A DNA stretch of 54,870 bases, from NCBI GenBank assembly GCA_003557505.1, contig PWOH01000009.1, positions 1-54,870 on the forward strand, in the 5' to 3' direction. The notes under the pieces were generated by a model. It ran no database searches. It was not told where the DNA came from and saw only the letters and a list, made by a program, of their open reading frames with translations. This DNA comes from Mollicutes bacterium (GTDB lineage Bacteria > Bacillota_I > Bacilli_A > Izemoplasmatales > Izemoplasmataceae). Both the position numbers and the translations under genes were made by a program. Shown in pieces: positions 6,330-40,630 of this stretch. Within the stretch, counting starts at the first letter, position 1. Each line of letters opens with the position of its first letter.

Positions 6330-6675
6330 TTATTTAAATAGAAGGAAGCACTTAGAAAATAAAAACGGGGAAGAATTAAAAAAATATTTTTATGAGTTAT
6401 CTGAAAAAGTAGTGAGTGAATTAGTAGACTTAGGTCATGATTACACATCCAAATCAATCGAGAGAAGTGTCTTATTAAGAATGGGCTTCTCTAGTATTGA
6501 AGCTAAGAGTATAGTTGATATATTAGGTGATAATGATTTACTTCGAAAAGGTGCAGGCCATTGTGTTTATAAAGTCTCCTTGATCAAGAAAAAGCCAATT
6601 AGATTATCAGGAACAGAGATAGCAGCAGGAAATCATATTGAGTTTTTAAAAAAGGAGTTTAAAATCTATGAGTAA
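6310..6675 (+). CDS. oraS: D-ornithine 4,5-aminomutase, small subunit
   Basis: The small subunit of the adenosylcobalamin- and PLP-dependent mutase that moves the delta-amino group of D-ornithine to C4. Its 121 residues match the family size. The sequence is helical and charged, with the stretch GAGHCVYKVS near residue 80. The start at 6310 follows CAGGAGG, inside the end of ortB. It overlaps oraE by 8 nt, so both subunits should be made together. Confidence 0.92.
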   Translation: MKERKDDYLNRRKHLENKNGEELKKYFYELSEKVVSELVDLGHDYTSKSIERSVLLRMGFSSIEAKSIVDILGDNDLLRKGAGHCVYKVSLIKKKPIRLSGTEIAAGNHIEFLKKEFKIYE

Positions 6676-8881
6676 ATTGCAACCTAATCATAAATTAGAT
6701 GTTCGTAATATATTGGAGAATCTTGAGAATTATCATCCTCAAAAGCGAGGTTGGACTTGGAGAAAACAAGGGGCTATTAAACTGGGAAACTTTGAATATG
6801 CACAAGCAAGTCCTTCACTTAAAAACTCTGTGCCTCTACAAAGTGCAGCATTTCTAGGTAATATTGATCCTCAACCTGATTCAGTCATAACAGCTGAAAT
6901 CGCTTCTGGTCGTTTTGAAGACGATATAAGAAGAATGCGGATGGCTGCGTATCATGGTGCTGATCATATTATGGTTATACGTACTGCAGGTCAATCACAC
7001 TTCGATGGATTATTAGAGGGCACTCCACAAGGAGTGGGGGGTATACCAATCACAAGGAAACAACTAAGAGCACAACGAAAGGCACTAGATTTAATTGAAG
7101 AAGAGGTTGGTCGAAAAATTAACTATCATTCCTATGTGTCTGGTATAGCAGGACCTGAAATAGCGGTTTTGTTTACTGAAGAAGGTATTAATGGCGCCCA
7201 TCAAGACCCACAATACAACATTTTATATAGAAATATTAATATGGTTAGAAGTTTTGTTGATGCAGCAGAAAGTAAAAAAGTGATGGCGTATGCTAACATC
7301 GCTCAAATTGACGGAGCTCATAATGCGAACGCTACAGCTAGAGACGCTTGGAAAGTAATGCCTGAGTTACTTGTTCAACATGCAATTAACTCTGTATTTA
7401 GTGAAAAAATAGGCATTAAGCCAGAGAATATTGCTTTGTCTACTGTACCCCCTGCTGCCCCACCTTCTCCAGACATTAAATTAAACCTTCCTTACGCTCT
7501 TGCGCTACGTGAGTTCTTTGATAAATATAAAATGCGTGCACAAATGAATACAAAATATATGGATTCCTCTACTCGTGAAGCTACTGTAACACATGTTTTG
7601 AATCTACTAATTTCTAGGTTAACATCAGCTGATATTCAAAGCACAATTACTCCGGATGAAGGTCGAAATGTACCATGGCATGTTTATAATATAGAAGCAC
7701 TTGATACGACTAAACAAGCTATGGTCGGTATGGATGATTTATTAAGTATGGTTGGAATAAAAGATAGTGGTTACGTTCAAAATAAGAAGCGAGAAATACA
7801 AGAACGTGCAATTTTAATGCTGGAAGAAATTATTGAATTAGGTGGATATTTTAATGCTGTTGAATCCGGCATGTTTGTGGATAGCGGAGAATATCCTGAA
7901 CGACATGGTGACGGCATTAAGCGTGAAATAGAAGGGGGTATAGGAGCAGGAAGTATTATAAAACGTGATAAAGATTACATGGCTCCGGTAACTGCTCATT
8001 TTGGATATAACAACCTAAGTCAATATGGTGAAAACTATAAAAATAATCCCTCTAAATTAATTGAAGGATCAACGTTTGAAAAACCAGAGAAAATTCAATT
8101 TATTGATGAACTTGATGACAGTGATAATGTTTATTTAAGGATGGATGACACTGAAAAGTATCGAAACACTAATCTATTAAAGCCAGAAGTCGAATGGTTA
8201 GGAGATGGTGTTGTTACAGTCGATTTATTCTTTCCAATAGAAAAAAGAATAGCGCGAGAAGCAGCTATAAAAACAGGGGAAAATATGAATCTTCAAGATG
8301 TTGAAGTTATTCATGTAGAAATATTACATCCGTCTGAGGGTACTAGGGTTCAAATTAAAGGTAGAGTTAATTTTGATGTCAATATCGATGATTTAACAAT
8401 TCCAGAAGAAATTGATACTATCTCCGAGGATGAAATCTTTGATTATATCAAAAAATATCCAATGAGTGTTGTTGCAGGTACAGCGGGGGATGATGAACAC
8501 AGTGTCGGTATCAGAGAAGTGCTAGATATCAAGCATGGTGGTGTTGAAAAATATGGAATTAAATATACTTACCTGGGTACCAGTGTTTCTATTGAAAAAT
8601 TTGTTGATGCAGCGGTTGAGATGGATGCTGATGCAATACTAATGTCAACCATTATTTCACACGATGATGTTCATTATAAGAATATGAAAAAGTTACATGA
8701 TTATGCAGTTGAAAAAGGAGTTAGAGACAAGCTGATACTAATTGCGGGGGGTACGCAAGTAACGCCTGATATAGCAAGAAAAAATAATGTTGATCAAGGA
8801 TTTGGTCGCGGTACTAAAGGTCTTCATATTGCTAGCTTTTTAGTGAATAAACACAAAGAGAAGATAAAGAATGAAAATTGA
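6668..8881 (+). CDS. oraE: D-ornithine 4,5-aminomutase, large subunit
   Basis: The catalytic subunit, 737 residues, converting D-ornithine to 2,4-diaminopentanoate by a radical mechanism. The first 560 or so residues form the PLP-binding barrel. The C-terminal part is a Rossmann-type cobalamin domain with the motif D-E-H-S-V-G. His611 is the lower cobalt ligand. Lys622, eleven residues later in DIKHGG, has the same spacing as the PLP lysine in the characterised Clostridium sticklandii enzyme (His618/Lys629). Both key residues are therefore intact. The ATG overlaps oraS and the end overlaps the reactivase gene by 11 nt. The host needs a B12 source; no cobalamin riboswitch is seen upstream of ord or ortA. 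Confidence 0.96.
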   Translation: MSKLQPNHKLDVRNILENLENYHPQKRGWTWRKQGAIKLGNFEYAQASPSLKNSVPLQSAAFLGNIDPQPDSVITAEIASGRFEDDIRRMRMAAYHGADHIMVIRTAGQSHFDGLLEGTPQGVGGIPITRKQLRAQRKALDLIEEEVGRKINYHSYVSGIAGPEIAVLFTEEGINGAHQDPQYNILYRNINMVRSFVDAAESKKVMAYANIAQIDGAHNANATARDAWKVMPELLVQHAINSVFSEKIGIKPENIALSTVPPAAPPSPDIKLNLPYALALREFFDKYKMRAQMNTKYMDSSTREATVTHVLNLLISRLTSADIQSTITPDEGRNVPWHVYNIEALDTTKQAMVGMDDLLSMVGIKDSGYVQNKKREIQERAILMLEEIIELGGYFNAVESGMFVDSGEYPERHGDGIKREIEGGIGAGSIIKRDKDYMAPVTAHFGYNNLSQYGENYKNNPSKLIEGSTFEKPEKIQFIDELDDSDNVYLRMDDTEKYRNTNLLKPEVEWLGDGVVTVDLFFPIEKRIAREAAIKTGENMNLQDVEVIHVEILHPSEGTRVQIKGRVNFDVNIDDLTIPEEIDTISEDEIFDYIKKYPMSVVAGTAGDDEHSVGIREVLDIKHGGVEKYGIKYTYLGTSVSIEKFVDAAVEMDADAILMSTIISHDDVHYKNMKKLHDYAVEKGVRDKLILIAGGTQVTPDIARKNNVDQGFGRGTKGLHIASFLVNKHKEKIKNEN

Positions 8882-33493: not shown

Positions 33494-34488
33494 TCCAACA
33501 ATTTTTTGAGGCCATCGCCACTAAGGATGTCCCTACCCTCCATAAAATGTTTGATAGTCCTGTCTTCTTCCGTGATAAAGATAAAACAATCTATACTGAT
33601 CCTGAGATTATTACCGAAAAACTTTTAACATATCACACCTGTCATTTTGATCAAATCGTTCCTTATGAATCGTTAAATATTGTTCGCTTATCAAAACAGT
33701 TGTTTATGAAAGTTAAAACCAAAAATAATGCTATTTCGAAAATTTACCTTAGAGAAGTGCCCGAGGGTCAAAAACGTTTGCGCATAGATTTTTCCTATGA
33801 TGGGTCTCATTATTATGGCTTGCAACGTCAACCTACAAAGCAACCAACTATTCAAAAAGAAATAGAGAAGGTCTTAAAACATATATTGCAGCACGATTTA
33901 ACCGCCATATTTGCAGGCCGCACAGACAAAGGGGTTCATGCGCTTCATCAAGTTGCCCATTGCGACAGCACATCCCCAATACCAACTAAAACAATCCTGC
34001 AACTGATGAATAAGATGTTGCCTAATGATATTCATATACATACTGTCTCAGAGGTACCACCGGTTTTCCATGCCCGTTACGACTGTTTAAGAAAAACCTA
34101 CCTCTACATATTAGCACATGAGAAAAAACCGTTTGACGCCCATTATACCCACATTGTGGATGCTGTAAATATTGATAGACTCAAGGCCTTGCTCAATCAG
34201 TTAAAAGGCACTCATGATTTTATTGGTTTTTCCAAGTTATCTGCTGGAAAACCAACAATTAGAACAATTGACGCCATAGATGTTAAATCGTTCAACCAAC
34301 AAACGCATATTGAACTGACCTCAAAAGGGTTTTTACGTCATATGGTCCGTATAATTGTCGGGAACGCTTTAAAGGATTTATTCCAAGAGACTTCTACGAT
34401 TAAGGACGCATTGTCGAATCCTTCCAAAAACAATATTAAGTACATGGCTCCACCACAGGGGTTGTACTTAAAAAAACTTCAATATTAA
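33490..34488 (+). CDS. truA: tRNA pseudouridine synthase A with extra N-terminal domain
   Basis: TruA makes pseudouridine at tRNA positions 38-40. From residue 97 the protein is a normal TruA: LRIDFSYDGSHYYGLQRQP, the catalytic Asp146 in FAGRTDKGVHA, and FLRHMVRIIVG. The first 96 residues are not part of TruA. They start MIQQFFEAIATKDVPTLHKMF, which looks like the first helix of NTF2/SnoaL-like domains. ATG 33490 overlaps the ecfT stop, so the long form fits the operon. A separate start at TTG 33778, 9 nt after GAGGGT, is possible and would give an ordinary TruA. The whole stretch is in one frame without a stop. Confidence 0.9.
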   Translation: MIQQFFEAIATKDVPTLHKMFDSPVFFRDKDKTIYTDPEIITEKLLTYHTCHFDQIVPYESLNIVRLSKQLFMKVKTKNNAISKIYLREVPEGQKRLRIDFSYDGSHYYGLQRQPTKQPTIQKEIEKVLKHILQHDLTAIFAGRTDKGVHALHQVAHCDSTSPIPTKTILQLMNKMLPNDIHIHTVSEVPPVFHARYDCLRKTYLYILAHEKKPFDAHYTHIVDAVNIDRLKALLNQLKGTHDFIGFSKLSAGKPTIRTIDAIDVKSFNQQTHIELTSKGFLRHMVRIIVGNALKDLFQETSTIKDALSNPSKNNIKYMAPPQGLYLKKLQY

Positions 34489-34527
34489 AAAATAATTTTC
34501 TCCTACAGGTGAAAATTATTTTTTTTT
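34489..34527 (+). terminator. Intrinsic terminator after truA
   Basis: AATAATTTTC (34491-34500) pairs with GAAAATTATT (34511-34520) and a T run follows. An A run before the stem makes it potentially two-way. Confidence 0.88.
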
Positions 34528-34558
34528 AATGAATAAGGCGGATAATTCAAATTTAGAT

Positions 34559-34587: not shown

Positions 34588-34619
34588 ATAAACGTACTAA
34601 ACAAAAGGGTGTGAGTATT

Positions 34620-35123
34620 ATGAAAAAAAGGTCTGATACGAATGCGGTAGGCATGTTTGTGCTATTGCTTCTTTTTTGGATGATTATCGCTTCAGAGTTA
34701 TCTTTTTTACAACTTTTTGTCGGTGTTTTAGCTTCAGGATTTATTGTCATTTACGGATGGGATTTACTTTTTAATCGCCAACAACACACCAAACTGACTT
34801 TAAGAAGTCTTAAAGCCTTTATTGTGTTGTTTTTTATATTGCTAAAAGAGATGATTATTGCGAATATCAATGTCGCATTAATTGTGCTTTCGCCCAAAAT
34901 GCCGATCAGTCCCAAAATAGTGAAGATTAAACAACCACTCAAAAAGGATTTGAACCGAGCATTGTATGGGAATTTCATTACATTGACTCCTGGAACACTG
35001 ACTATCGATACAACTGAAGATTATGTTATTGTGCATGGATTAACTGAACATCATGTTGATGCATTAACACATAGTCCGCTTCAAAAAGCGTTCATTAATT
35101 TTGAGGGGGATAAACATGACTAA
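34620..35123 (+). CDS. mrpE: Mrp/Mbh antiporter subunit E (MnhE-like)
   Basis: A small membrane subunit of the Mrp-type cation/proton antiporter. The 167 residues hold about three hydrophobic segments followed by a soluble domain with ALYGNFITLTPGTLTIDT and VHGL, the signature of the E subunit (MbhA of hydrogenase complexes). ATG 34620 is preferred over GTG 34611, which lies within AAAGGGTGTG. It overlaps mrpF by 8 nt. Confidence 0.9.
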   Translation: MKKRSDTNAVGMFVLLLLFWMIIASELSFLQLFVGVLASGFIVIYGWDLLFNRQQHTKLTLRSLKAFIVLFFILLKEMIIANINVALIVLSPKMPISPKIVKIKQPLKKDLNRALYGNFITLTPGTLTIDTTEDYVIVHGLTEHHVDALTHSPLQKAFINFEGDKHD

Positions 35124-35379
35124 TTTCATTTATTTTTCGATTGTATTCTTGATCGTTCTTGGGTTTGTAGCGCTTTATCGTGCTTATAAGGGTCCACAAG
35201 CATCAGATAGAGTTGTAGCGATTAACGTTATCACCACAAAAGCGGTGACGATTATTGTGTTGATTGCGGTTATCACAGCTCAAGATTCTTACTTGAATGT
35301 CGCACTGCTTTATGCGTTGGTGGGATTTATGACGACCATCGGGGTTGGCAAATATTTAATGAAAGGCAAACTTGGATAG
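35116..35379 (+). CDS. mrpF: Mrp/Mbh antiporter subunit F
   Basis: An 87-residue membrane protein with three hydrophobic segments and the F-subunit motif YRAYKGPQASDRVVAINVIT. ATG 35116 follows GAGGGGGAT. The frame upstream to TTG 35101 is inside mrpE and covers that ribosome site. Confidence 0.9.
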   Translation: MTNFIYFSIVFLIVLGFVALYRAYKGPQASDRVVAINVITTKAVTIIVLIAVITAQDSYLNVALLYALVGFMTTIGVGKYLMKGKLG

Positions 35380-35387
35380 GTGATTTT

Positions 35388-35705
35388 ATGGATATTTTAG
35401 TGCATACCATCGTTATCATTTTTATTGTTTTAGGTTTGTTTTTCTTTATGGTTGGGACTGTTGGATTGATTCGGTTGCCTGATGCATTTACACGAATGCA
35501 TGCGACGACGAAATGCGATACATTAGGTGCAGGCTTAGTACTGCTTGGGGTTATCATCTGGCAAGGTTTTGGTTTTGTCAGTTTGAATGTTTTAGTTATT
35601 TTAACGTTTATTTGGCTGACGAATCCGACCGCTGCGCATTTTATTGCGAAAACGCAGTACCAACTTGATCAACAAAACACGAAGGATAAGGAGGAATCAC
35701 TATGA
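35388..35705 (+). CDS. mrpG: Mrp/Mbh antiporter subunit G
   Basis: A 105-residue membrane protein with three segments and the G-subunit signature GTVGLIRLPDAFTRMHATTKCDTLG. It overlaps the next gene by 4 nt. Confidence 0.92.
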   Translation: MDILVHTIVIIFIVLGLFFFMVGTVGLIRLPDAFTRMHATTKCDTLGAGLVLLGVIIWQGFGFVSLNVLVILTFIWLTNPTAAHFIAKTQYQLDQQNTKDKEESL

Positions 35706-35941
35706 TTGTATTAAATGTTATGATTGTGATTTTTCTTATTGTAGCGGCTTTGGCCATTGAACGCACAAAAGATTTGTTAAGTGCAGTGATTATTTTTTCA
35801 GTTTACTCACTGATGATGTCGGTGCTATGGTTGATTTTAAAAACCCCTGATGTTGCTTTGACAGAAGCGGCGATTGGGGCCGGGGTAACCTCTATATTGT
35901 TTATTGCAGTAATAAGTCGCACCCAGAGGTATGAAAAATGA
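35702..35941 (+). CDS. MbhD-like antiporter subunit (MrpA middle-domain equivalent)
   Basis: A 79-residue protein with three hydrophobic segments and TKDLLSAVIIFSVYSL plus LKTPDVALTEAAIGAG. This matches the MbhD/DUF4040 domain that in Bacillus Mrp systems is fused into the C-terminal half of MrpA. Here it is a separate gene, as in hydrogenase operons. It overlaps its neighbours by 4 nt on both sides. Confidence 0.85.
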   Translation: MIVLNVMIVIFLIVAALAIERTKDLLSAVIIFSVYSLMMSVLWLILKTPDVALTEAAIGAGVTSILFIAVISRTQRYEK

Positions 35942-36243
35942 AAAAACCATTTATTATGCTTATGTTTATTGCGTTATTTGTAGTCTTAGTAATCAATATT
36001 ATGCGCATGCCTGCCGGGCTTGGAACGGATAGTTTATCGTATAATGATGCCACAGAACATTATATACAATACTCTGCGGAAGAGACAGGGGTTACGAATA
36101 TTATCGCCGCAATATTAACGGATTACAGAGCGTTTGATACGTTAGGTGAAACCATTATACTGTTTACTTCTATTGTGGCTGTCATATCTGTGTTACGACC
36201 CGATAAAAAGCCTGAAAATGAGGGGCGTGTTTCTCATGAATGA
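35938..36243 (+). CDS. MbhE-like antiporter subunit (MrpA C-terminal equivalent)
   Basis: A 101-residue protein with a hydrophobic segment at each end and NIIAAILTDYRAFDTLGETIILF between, the pattern of MbhE and of the end of MrpA. With the preceding gene it supplies what a full MrpA has beyond its NuoL-like part. It overlaps mrpB by 8 nt. Confidence 0.83.
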   Translation: MKKPFIMLMFIALFVVLVINIMRMPAGLGTDSLSYNDATEHYIQYSAEETGVTNIIAAILTDYRAFDTLGETIILFTSIVAVISVLRPDKKPENEGRVSHE

Positions 36244-36664
36244 TATTATTGTCAAGAGTATCACGCGTCTTGTAATTCCTTTTTTACAACTTTATGGGAT
36301 TTATATCATCTTACATGGTCATATTTCACCGGGTGGTGGTTTTTCCGGTGGCGCATTGATTGGGAGTTCTTTAATACTATATACACTTGTTTTTGGGGTG
36401 GACCGTGCTCAAAAAAAGTTTTCGCATCGTGTGAGTGAGATTGCGGAAAGTGGTGGCATCTTGCTTTATTTGTTTGTCGGGGCATTAGGCATTGCCTTGA
36501 CAGGTAATTTCCTAAGCAATAAAGCCGCAGGATTTCCACTCGGTGAACTTGGGAGTTTACTTAGTGGCGGCATCATACCAGTCTTGATGATAGGGATAGG
36601 GATTAAGGTAGCTTCGACAATGATTACCTTGTTTCATGTCTTGATACAGGAGGAAAGCCAATGA
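36236..36664 (+). CDS. mrpB: Mrp/Mbh antiporter subunit B
   Basis: A 142-residue membrane protein with four segments and the B-subunit signature YGIYIILHGHISPGGGFSGGA. ATG 36236 follows GAGGGG. The open frame further upstream lies in the preceding gene. It overlaps mrpC by 4 nt. Confidence 0.9.
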   Translation: MNDIIVKSITRLVIPFLQLYGIYIILHGHISPGGGFSGGALIGSSLILYTLVFGVDRAQKKFSHRVSEIAESGGILLYLFVGALGIALTGNFLSNKAAGFPLGELGSLLSGGIIPVLMIGIGIKVASTMITLFHVLIQEESQ

Positions 36665-37038
36665 ATTTAGTTAATGATATCCTTGCCCATGTAAATTTTA
36701 TAGGCGCCATGGCGTTATTTGTGATTGGCTTATATATGGTAGTTACGCATTCGAATCTTATTAAACGTATTATGGGGATTAATATTATGGGGACCGCAAT
36801 ATTTTATTTTTTCATAGCGGTTGGAAATGTTGAGGATGGTGCTCCGCCTTTATTGGATCCTGATGGCAATGCGCTCACCTTTATAAATCCATTGCCTTCA
36901 GTATTAATTCTTACTGGAATTGTCGTTGTAGTTTCTATTACGGTGTATTCACTGAGTTTAGTGGTAAGAATTTATGAAACTTATGGAACAATCGATCAAA
37001 AAGAGATGGCACAAATAGAGGCTGAAGACGATGATTGA
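36661..37038 (+). CDS. mrpC: Mrp/Mbh antiporter subunit C (NuoK-like)
   Basis: A 125-residue protein with three hydrophobic segments related to complex I subunit NuoK, with GLYMVVTHSNLIKRIMGINIM and a C-terminal ALTFINPLPSVLILTGIVV. It overlaps mrpD by 8 nt. Confidence 0.92.
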   Translation: MNLVNDILAHVNFIGAMALFVIGLYMVVTHSNLIKRIMGINIMGTAIFYFFIAVGNVEDGAPPLLDPDGNALTFINPLPSVLILTGIVVVVSITVYSLSLVVRIYETYGTIDQKEMAQIEAEDDD

Positions 37039-38515
37039 ACAATTACCGATTATTAATCTGATTTTATTACTGACGACCGCGTTGGTTATTCCATTGTTTA
37101 AAAAACAACGCTTTATGGTGACGTTGATTTTGAGTTTTGTGGTGCTTTTTATCGTGTGGTTGAGTGCGCTATATTTACTGTATCATGTCAACACAACAGG
37201 TGCTTTTTATTACCGGTTTGGTGGGTATTCTCCCACGATTGGCCTTGAATTATTAATTAATCCTTTCTCTGCTTTATTTACGTTCTTTGTGATAACTTTA
37301 TTGATGATTATATTTATATACTCTACAGCGGATGCTTCTGATGGGATTCACGAACGCGAGTATGGTCGATATTATATATTGATGTTTATTTTATTGTTTG
37401 CGATGTTTGGTATTATTTACACTAATGACTTATTCAATACGTACGTGTTTATGGAAATCTTATCGATTACGACCTGTGCGATTATTTCCATTAAACGTAA
37501 GAAGAAGAATTATGCGGCGGCTTTCCGTTATGTGATGCTTAATGAAATGGGATCATTATCCTATTTGTTTGGTGTGGCACTCCTATATATGGTTACAGGG
37601 TATACAAACATTGAACTGGTTTTTCAAGGGGTTCAGGATGTTTGGGTAATCTATCCGACAAACATTATTATTGCGGCGATCTTTATGATTGTAGGCTTAG
37701 GACTTAAAGCTGCGATCTTTCCGTTGCATATTTGGTTGCCCGATGCGCATTCTGCCGCACCGAGTTCATCGAGTGCGATTTTATCCGCTATTGTGGTTAA
37801 AGTGTATTTGATTATATTAGTAAAAGTATTGTTTAGCGTTTTTGGCATCACGATTATTGAAGCGTTACATATTCCGAGTCTTCTTATGGTGATAGGAGCA
37901 GTAGGAATTGTGATGGGATCGTTTTTTGCGATTGCACAACATGATATCAAACGGATGCTAGGTTATTCTTCTGTTGCTCAAATAGGCTACATAGTGTTAG
38001 GGATTGGGTTGGCTTCCTCATTAGGGTTAAGAATAGCGTTTTATCATGTGTTTTCACATGGTATTATGAAATCCGTGCTATTTTTAAGTGTCGGAGCGGT
38101 TATATATCAGCGTAACTTAAGGAAGGTAACTGCGTATAATGGGATAGGCTATATGATGCCGTTGTCGATAGGGATGTTTACTTTAGCCGCCCTAGGTATG
38201 ATTGGCATTCCACTCACTAGTGGCTTTATTTCAAAGTTTAATTTAGGCATTGCAGCACTGGATGGTGGACAGGGAATTTATATTATTATCCTTGTTGTAA
38301 GTGGTATCCTTAATGCCATCTATTATTTGCCGATTATTATTGCGGCCTTCCTACGTGAAAATCCTGAAAATCAAATTTATGTAAGTAAAGACAAAGTTCC
38401 ATTGTTAATGATTATGCCTATTTTAATTTTAGGCGCGTTTATTGTTATTATCGGGGTTTACCCTGCAATTATTTTTGATTTGGTAGACAGTGCTGTGTCT
38501 ACGTTTAGTTTTTAA
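37031..38515 (+). CDS. mrpD: Mrp/Mbh antiporter subunit D (NuoN/NuoL-like)
   Basis: A 494-residue polytopic membrane protein of the proton-translocating antiporter family shared with complex I. FMEILSITTC holds the conserved TM5 glutamate, AAIFPLHIWLPDAHSAAPS the TM7 lysine region, and FYHVFSHGIMKSVLFLSVGA the later lysine segment. AGGCTGAAGACG precedes it weakly; the overlap with mrpC suggests coupled translation. Confidence 0.94.
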   Translation: MIEQLPIINLILLLTTALVIPLFKKQRFMVTLILSFVVLFIVWLSALYLLYHVNTTGAFYYRFGGYSPTIGLELLINPFSALFTFFVITLLMIIFIYSTADASDGIHEREYGRYYILMFILLFAMFGIIYTNDLFNTYVFMEILSITTCAIISIKRKKKNYAAAFRYVMLNEMGSLSYLFGVALLYMVTGYTNIELVFQGVQDVWVIYPTNIIIAAIFMIVGLGLKAAIFPLHIWLPDAHSAAPSSSSAILSAIVVKVYLIILVKVLFSVFGITIIEALHIPSLLMVIGAVGIVMGSFFAIAQHDIKRMLGYSSVAQIGYIVLGIGLASSLGLRIAFYHVFSHGIMKSVLFLSVGAVIYQRNLRKVTAYNGIGYMMPLSIGMFTLAALGMIGIPLTSGFISKFNLGIAALDGGQGIYIIILVVSGILNAIYYLPIIIAAFLRENPENQIYVSKDKVPLLMIMPILILGAFIVIIGVYPAIIFDLVDSAVSTFSF

Positions 38516-38530
38516 TGGGTGGTGTTTATA

Positions 38531-40630
38531 ATGTTTCAACCAAAATATAAGTGGTATGATAATTTTACAACCTTAACAGGTGGGTTAATCATTTTGGGGG
38601 CAATAATACTGGTTTATGTCCTTGCGGGGTTAAACGGATCTTTTGGCTTGAATAATCCGTTTGAGCGCTTTACAATGCTTAAGACGCTTTCTGAGTTTAA
38701 ATGGATGCCACTCTTGATTATTTTTACACCGGCTGTTGGTGGCGGGATACAACTGTTTTTCTCAAGGAAAACATGTTATTCGCGTGATACAGTCGTTATT
38801 GTCATGAGCTTTTCAACCATTTTAATGACATTACTAATGTATCCTACTGCTTTGGATGGCGGTCAATTGTTAAGTTTTCCGGGCTTTTTAGGCTTAGGGC
38901 TTAGTCTAAAAGTCGATATGCTTAGTCTTGTGATGTTGTTGATCACCTCCATTCTTTGGTTTTTGGTGATGGTTTACGCGCATGCTTACATGATTAAAGA
39001 AAAACGATGCAATCGTTTCTTTTTCTTCATGGCGCTCACGTATAGTTCTGTACTGGGAACGTTAGTTTCAGCCGATCTATTAACGATGTTTTTGTTTTTT
39101 GAAATGATGACGATTACTTCATATATGCTTGTGACGCATGGTCAAAAAGAAGAATCCTATAGTGCTGGTTATAATTATATTTTTATGGGGCTATTAGGAG
39201 GCTTTGCGATTTTTGTGGCACTTGTTTTGATGGTTGTTTATGTCGGAGATTTGTCTTTTACCTCAGCGATCGTTGCACTGCAAGCTACCGGCAGTATTCG
39301 TTATTGGATTATTGGTTTGTTGGTCATGGGCTTTGGAATCAAAGCGGGGATGGCGCCTGTGCATGTTTGGTTACCTAGAGCCCATCCCGTTGCCCCAACG
39401 CCAGCAAGCGCATTGCTTTCAGGGATTATGATTAAGGTTGGTGCATATGGCGTTTTACGAGTGGCAACCAGTTATTATTTCCCAGTGAAAAATACAGTTG
39501 ATTCACGGTTCGATCCGATATGGCTGACAAGTGAGACTATCGGTTTTTCGATTATATGGCTCGGCATGATTACGATGGCAATTGGGGTGTTTTTAGCCTT
39601 GCAACAATCCAACATCAAACGGATGCTGGCGTATCATTCGATTTCTCAAATGGGGTATATAGTTATGGGGATTGGGGTAGCCCTCTATTTGGGATATTAT
39701 GGTGCAATGGGCTTTGCGGGCAGTTTATATCATATTATTAATCATGCCTTGTTTAAATCATTATTGTTTATGGTGGCTGGTTCTGTTTATCTGCATACCA
39801 GAGAAAATGATATGTATAAACTTGGTGGGCTATGGCGTAAATTACCCTTAAGTGCCACTGTTGCGTTAATTGCGGCTTTAGGCATAAGTGGTATTCCTTT
39901 GTTTAATGGATTTGTCTCTAAAACAATTCTGCATCATGGGATTGTTGAAGCGTATGAATACGGTCATGCATCTTTCCGATATGCGGAATGGATATTTATC
40001 GTGATTAGTGCAGGGACCGTGTGTTCTTTTATAAAACTGTATTATTATGTATTTTTAGGCAAAATGCCGGATATCTATAAATCCATTAAACCAAAACTTA
40101 ACTCTTTAGATGTTTCGATGGCGGCGATTGCGATGATGATTCTATTTATTGGATTGAATCCATCCTTGATTTTAGATTTGTTCATTATTCCAGAACTCCG
40201 GGTAATCAGTTATGATCCTCAGTTTATCAACACCTATATTGTAGGTATGTCTGTCTTTACAGTGAGTGATATGAGTATTATGGTACCGATTGTCATATTG
40301 GGATTTTTGATATTTATCGCAGGGACTAAGTTCCATTTGTTCCATTTGAAATTACCGGGATGGCTGCGCATTGAATATATTTTCTTTTATCCATCCTTTC
40401 ATTTGATGCGTGGTGCATGCAGATTGTTATATGGTGATCAATGCCCGATAGATAAAAAAGAATACTTTAAAATGGATATTAAGCATAATTATGATGTAGG
40501 ATTTTTAGATCGTTTTGTGGTGTTATCACACATGTTTGACAAACGCTTTGAAAAAAAGATAATCAACAGTGACGCACTGATTTATACGATTTTAATCACT
40601 TTGGTCATTATAATTATGATGTTTGTTTAA
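38531..40630 (+). CDS. NuoL/MrpA-type antiporter subunit
   Basis: A 699-residue polytopic protein of the same antiporter superfamily. FFEMMTITSYMLV carries the TM5 glutamate, AGMAPVHVWLPRAHPVAPTP the TM7 region, and LYHIINHALFKSLLFMVAGS the TM8 region. It would stand in for the N-terminal part of MrpA, with an extra C-terminal stretch of about 150 residues. ATG 38531 is used because GGGTGGTG lies 7 nt before it; the GTG codons at 38519 and 38522 are part of that site. It closes the cluster. No hydrogenase subunit follows. Confidence 0.9.
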   Translation: MFQPKYKWYDNFTTLTGGLIILGAIILVYVLAGLNGSFGLNNPFERFTMLKTLSEFKWMPLLIIFTPAVGGGIQLFFSRKTCYSRDTVVIVMSFSTILMTLLMYPTALDGGQLLSFPGFLGLGLSLKVDMLSLVMLLITSILWFLVMVYAHAYMIKEKRCNRFFFFMALTYSSVLGTLVSADLLTMFLFFEMMTITSYMLVTHGQKEESYSAGYNYIFMGLLGGFAIFVALVLMVVYVGDLSFTSAIVALQATGSIRYWIIGLLVMGFGIKAGMAPVHVWLPRAHPVAPTPASALLSGIMIKVGAYGVLRVATSYYFPVKNTVDSRFDPIWLTSETIGFSIIWLGMITMAIGVFLALQQSNIKRMLAYHSISQMGYIVMGIGVALYLGYYGAMGFAGSLYHIINHALFKSLLFMVAGSVYLHTRENDMYKLGGLWRKLPLSATVALIAALGISGIPLFNGFVSKTILHHGIVEAYEYGHASFRYAEWIFIVISAGTVCSFIKLYYYVFLGKMPDIYKSIKPKLNSLDVSMAAIAMMILFIGLNPSLILDLFIIPELRVISYDPQFINTYIVGMSVFTVSDMSIMVPIVILGFLIFIAGTKFHLFHLKLPGWLRIEYIFFYPSFHLMRGACRLLYGDQCPIDKKEYFKMDIKHNYDVGFLDRFVVLSHMFDKRFEKKIINSDALIYTILITLVIIIMMFV

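Follow-up and report, generated by a model that had tools for sequence, protein, structure and literature searches.

A stand-alone group 3 Mrp gene cluster in Mbh-like order with two antiporter-like subunits in an Izemoplasmatales genome

Nine consecutive genes of an Izemoplasmatales/Peloplasma-like mollicute very probably encode one complete, stand-alone Mrp complex of group 3, most likely an electrogenic secondary Na+/H+ antiporter that has no redox partner. They lie on a 54,870-nucleotide contig (C95; this whole stretch is the window below) of a 1.53-Mb MAG that is 91% complete; among named records it stands closest to Peloplasma aerotolerans and to Candidatus Izimaplasma MAGs, several of which come from soda-lake sediments. 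Group 3 is defined by the lack of mrpA together with one or more mrpD genes, or by an irregular gene order (PMC5703873, PMC8415708). Because MrpA-less, irregularly ordered clusters with multiple mrpD genes are already a published group, the implied oddity is small, and the cluster is a new member and not a new kind.

Translation and Pfam searches identified nine plus-strand genes in the order E-F-G-MbhD-MbhE-B-C-D-L, as in the initial annotation, which named the second antiporter-like subunit NuoL; we call it L. Each of the nine proteins scored above its Pfam cut-off, and the E-values, between 2e-9 and 7e-60, exclude a chance assignment. The gene mrpE (34611–35123; PF01899 MNHE, E 6e-28) more likely starts at the ATG at 34620, the coordinate given by the initial annotation, whose end point, 40630, is exact. 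It is followed by mrpF (35101–35379; PF04066, E 4e-16), for which the likelier start is the ATG at 35116 behind GAGGGGG, and by mrpG (35388–35705; PF03334, E 2e-28; TIGR01300 above cut-off). The mbhD-like gene (35702–35941; PF13244, E 2e-22) corresponds to part of the C-terminal TM17–21 of MrpA and the mbhE-like gene (35938–36243; PF20501, E 2e-9) to the remainder. Next come mrpB, the MbhF equivalent (36236–36664; PF04039 MnhB, E 7e-30), mrpC, the MbhG/NuoK equivalent (36661–37038; PF00420 Oxidored_q2, E 3e-21; PRK07375 family), mrpD for the first antiporter-like subunit (37031–38515; PF00361 Proton_antipo_M, E 7e-60) and the gene for the 703-aa L (38519–40630; PF00361, E 1e-56, and PF00662 Proton_antipo_N). 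MrpB to MrpG are thus all encoded, with more than one mrpD-type gene, an irregular order and no large mrpA; the single MrpA of about 800 aa and the order A–G of Bacillus group 1 are not found here.

The nine genes share one strand and are separated by a few bases or overlap. Upstream of mrpE lies truA, and a terminator-like A/T-rich stem with a T run (34484–34530, plus strand; −12.8 kcal/mol, z −4.9 against shuffles) stands between the two, which suggests that the nine genes are transcribed as a separate unit. Downstream of L are tmk, holB and ricT; the interval between L and tmk holds no clear terminator and its fold energy is not better than that of shuffles. A promoter scan of the operon gave no more sites than shuffled sequence, and searches of the operon returned no Rfam family and no tRNA. 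No hydrogenase gene adjoins the cluster, which stands alone next to tmk as first described. Elsewhere in the window we observed an array of 13 tRNA genes (85–1285) and a gene for a single 737-aa chain resembling D-ornithine 4,5-aminomutase (6668–8881; Lys-AminoMut_A, OAM_dimer and B12-binding).

Both antiporter-like subunits retain the expected channel residues, namely a TM5 Glu, TM7 Lys, TM8 Lys, TM11 His/Lys and TM12 Lys. The alignment of conserved Lys and Glu residues proposed in the initial annotation recovered all six in D (E142, K226, K257, H343, K347 and K402) and in L (E195, K275, K306, H409, K413 and K468), where they are invariant among 18 and 24 sequences, respectively. Those of D were matched to MbhH/MrpD, and those of both subunits align with PDB chains. 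Residues of the same kinds have been described for MrpA and MrpD of B. pseudofirmus (PMC9568556). Motifs of the predicted sodium path are conserved as well. The mrpF product keeps the Asp of GPxxxDRVVA (aligned with 6u8y_B, 6cfw_B and 6z16_F), the mbhD-like product keeps TPDVALTEAAIG with the motif PDVALTEA (aligned with 6u8y_D and 6cfw_D, and weakly with MrpA 636–696), and the mbhE-like product keeps DYRxFDTLGE, also given as DYRxxDTLGE (aligned with 6cfw_E and MrpA C-termini).

L has one extra N-terminal helix and an MrpA/NuoL-like C-terminal extension. Its AlphaFold model has a pTM of 0.84 and a mean pLDDT of 80, falling to only 51–63 at the C-terminus, and its best PDB matches are the MrpA chains 9a6h_A and 7qru_A over 611–658 columns. 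Many NuoL/NdhF chains score nearly as high, so the match speaks for position more than for ancestry, and by position and modelled fold L may be equivalent to the energy-input module of MrpA. The description of the cluster as carrying a split MrpA holds for domain content, with MbhD and MbhE resembling the MrpA C-terminus and L bearing an MrpA-like extension, but it is not clearly true of ancestry, as L falls outside the MrpA group in our tree.

Since the gene order equals that of Mbh and Mbs, the module might be an orphaned membrane arm whose redox arm was lost in the window's genus. We searched for the subunits that such an arm would join. PF00346 (NuoD/MbhL, the [NiFe] large-subunit family) had no match in the window's own genome, and PF00146 (NuoH/MbhM) had none there or in five other genomes of the genus (0/6); for the own genome these are protein family searches of a MAG that is 91% complete, from which a partner could be missing. 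NuoH is present in 14 of 49 family genomes, and other genera of the family do have true Mbs-type complexes, in which it is linked to NuoB, NuoC, NuoD and NuoI. Two of their loci (L081 and L082) read E-F-G-D-(E/F)-C-D-L-NuoH-NuoB-NuoC-NuoD, followed 3′ of NuoD by ferredoxin domains fused to a GltD/NfnL-like pyridine-nucleotide oxidoreductase.

The phylogeny of D and L suggested in the initial annotation separates these complexes from the window cluster. D and L of the family Mbs-type complexes fall together with MbsH and MbsH′ of P. furiosus (support 100/99 and 99/94), whereas window D and L form clades apart from Mbs and group with clostridial sequences (100/100); branches are long and the deeper order is unsure. 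Window D and L are just 24–30% identical to family Mbs D and L, and the TM7 position is Lys in window D but Glu in Mbs-type D. Moreover, the clostridial orthologues likewise stand alone. We therefore rejected a hydrogenase or Mbs remnant on the genome searches, the tree and the residues, and give the orphaned arm hardly any credence. Relatives with the same order and linked hydrogenase genes had been named as evidence that would count against the initial annotation; a redox-linked cluster does exist in the family, but it is not orthologous. Of the two alternatives first proposed, the stand-alone Na+/H+ antiporter with Mbh-like order is supported, and the respiratory-complex remnant is not, given the lack of NuoH in six genus genomes and of NuoD/MbhL in the own genome, the stand-alone orthologues and the separate clades. 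Mbh gene order alone is thus no signal of a hydrogenase remnant, because a stand-alone antiporter lineage keeps the same order.

Free-living mollicutes share that lineage with Clostridia, and several of these organisms come from soda-lake sediments; the clusters of the lineage stand alone in every mollicute and clostridial relative read. The window-type cluster occurs by itself at seven loci (L036, L037, L039, L041, L087, L089 and L094), the examined flanks of which lack NuoH, NuoB, NuoC and NuoD, and in another (L092) L is located upstream of E. The cultured Peloplasma aerotolerans has the same cluster, with 67% identity in D. The system is patchy, since only 8 of 392 genomes drawn from the phylum have D at E-values up to 1e-90. 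One further L-type subunit is found in L088 and in clostridial and Bacillota loci (L042–L045, L047 and L051), bringing these stand-alone Mrp clusters to three antiporter-like subunits, D, L and L′ (L042:11670-15554, for example); an actinomycete locus (L049) possibly has four.

Among 61 related genomes, 19 have window-type L, 14 have Mbs-type L and none has both (Fisher p 0.003, a value that ignores relatedness). Within genus g9, the window type is found in one genome (G033, 99% complete), as against Mbs in two others (G013 and G027, 99%, one contig each) and NuoH/Mbs in a fourth (G072). It is possible, though doubtful, that the two-antiporter Mrp and the ferredoxin-linked Mbs are interchangeable sodium/proton solutions in Izemoplasmatales, with real replacement events in genus g9. 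If so, the lineage would allow related membrane machines that run with a redox arm to be compared in nature with others that run without one; the apparent exclusion between the two in a single family gives a modest clue to redox-arm gain and loss in the complex I superfamily. Five of the Mbs loci (L081:4133-15865 in G013, L082, L083, L084 and L090) encode a fusion of a NuoI-like subunit with a GltD/NfnL-like NAD(P)H oxidoreductase (Fer4_7, Fer4_20 and Pyr_redox_2), which suggests a ferredoxin:NAD(P)H-linked Mbs in Izemoplasmatales. In L081–L084 a conserved 300-aa protein without a Pfam match precedes the fusion.

The window cluster is not the only Mrp locus of its host. PF00361 matched no MrpA-sized protein in the own genome; its matches are window D, window L, a D divided between contigs C124 and C48, which we joined through an identical overlap, and an orphan D-like protein on contig C96. 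The joined contigs carry a second Mrp operon, E-F-G-MbhD (200 aa)-MbhE/B fusion-C-D, in Mbh order and with a single antiporter-like subunit. A classical mrpABCDEFG operon, whose presence would have weighed against the initial annotation, is therefore absent, yet a second Mrp operon is present, and for this reason the role proposed below is not assignable to the window copy alone. The MbhD of the second operon (L068, C124, joined to L066, C48) is extended at its C-terminus by about 100 aa of soluble sequence, and L089 has a long MbhD of this kind with 208 aa. The orphan (L067:935-2566) is a 543-aa MrpD-like gene outside the Mrp operons that groups with the second-operon D. Two such D-like genes, lying on separate contigs or in separate places, are also found in several relatives, so the orphan may supply a missing second antiporter subunit.

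Other loci of the genome point to sodium. Contig C35 carries an Rnf operon (C-D-G-E-A-B) and contig C87 an Rnf/Nqr-like D-G-E set, and the F-ATPase c-subunit, encoded on C69, shows Gln, Glu-Thr-Thr and Tyr at Na+-ligand positions, which we take to be those of the Ilyobacter Na+ ligands. Together with the second Mrp operon, these features make a sodium-based economy of the host cell likely. Na+-binding F-ATPases have been predicted in Izemoplasmataceae MAGs from a serpentinizing spring, a site from which many MAGs were reported to have Mrp and/or Nha antiporters (PMC10308030). The complex could instead carry mainly K+ or Ca2+, given that Ca2+/H+ activity is known for one Mrp system (PMC5703873) and that some Mrp use K+ (PMC8415708); the c-subunit residues and the Rnf/Nqr-type pumps favour Na+, the motifs of F, MbhD and MbhE match those of Na+-linked Mrp and Mbh, and we consider the K+ or Ca2+ reading very unlikely. 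The presence of Rnf and the Rnf/Nqr-type locus, as well as the NuoE/F and group A hydrogenases of Peloplasma (PMC11122141), would also fit a split respiratory complex, in which redox subunits from other loci, such as Rnf or the Peloplasma NuoE/F-hydrogenase set, attach to the module. Such docking is extremely improbable: the known link between Mrp modules and redox subunits, the NuoH-type and NuoD-type adaptors, is missing (NuoD from the own genome, NuoH from the six genus genomes), and the MrpA and MrpD positions are already filled by L and D. We also know of no system in which Rnf or Nqr uses an Mrp module.

For the stand-alone antiporter we infer the following working scheme. The nine products would assemble into one complex in which protons are conducted by the two antiporter-like subunits MrpD and L, the equivalent of the Bacillus MrpA C-terminus is provided by MbhD and MbhE, MrpB, E, F and G form a sodium-translocation module and MrpC joins these. 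H+ would be exchanged against Na+, driven by whichever gradient is larger. The Na+ gradients would probably come from Rnf and the second Rnf/Nqr-type system and be consumed by the Na+-type F-ATPase, and the complex would couple this Na+ cycle to cytoplasmic pH. A role in pH homeostasis with use of Na+ was shown by deletion for the stand-alone group 3 Mrp of P. furiosus (mrpEFGBB′CD; PMC8415708).

This P. furiosus system (PF1147–1153) has the same order as the window cluster, E-F-G-(MbhD/E)-B-C-D, and both have MbhD/E equivalents, no MrpA gene and no hydrogenase (PMC8415708). They differ in that MbhD and MbhE are fused in P. furiosus, which has one antiporter-like subunit, whereas they are separate in the window, where L is added. 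Like the window cluster, the group 3 clusters of Aphanothece halophytica (mrpCD1D2EFGAB) and ‘Ca. Nitrospira alkalitolerans’ contain a complete Mrp set plus additional antiporter-like genes, in the latter two NuoM/NuoL-like genes downstream of mrpD, but their gene order differs; the Aphanothece system is a shown Na+/H+ antiporter, the window system a predicted one. Bacillus group 1 Mrp (mrpABCDEFG) has the same domain inventory, with the L fold similar to the N-terminal part of MrpA and MbhD and MbhE similar to its TM17–21, although in the window the MrpA content is spread over three proteins and the order starts E-F-G. The membrane arms of Mbs and Mbh, from P. furiosus and, for Mbs, from other Izemoplasmatales, share the order A–H, Mbs with an extra antiporter H′; the window is set apart from them by the absence of subunits M, J, K, L and N, by the TM7 Lys of D as against Mbs and by its separate clades.
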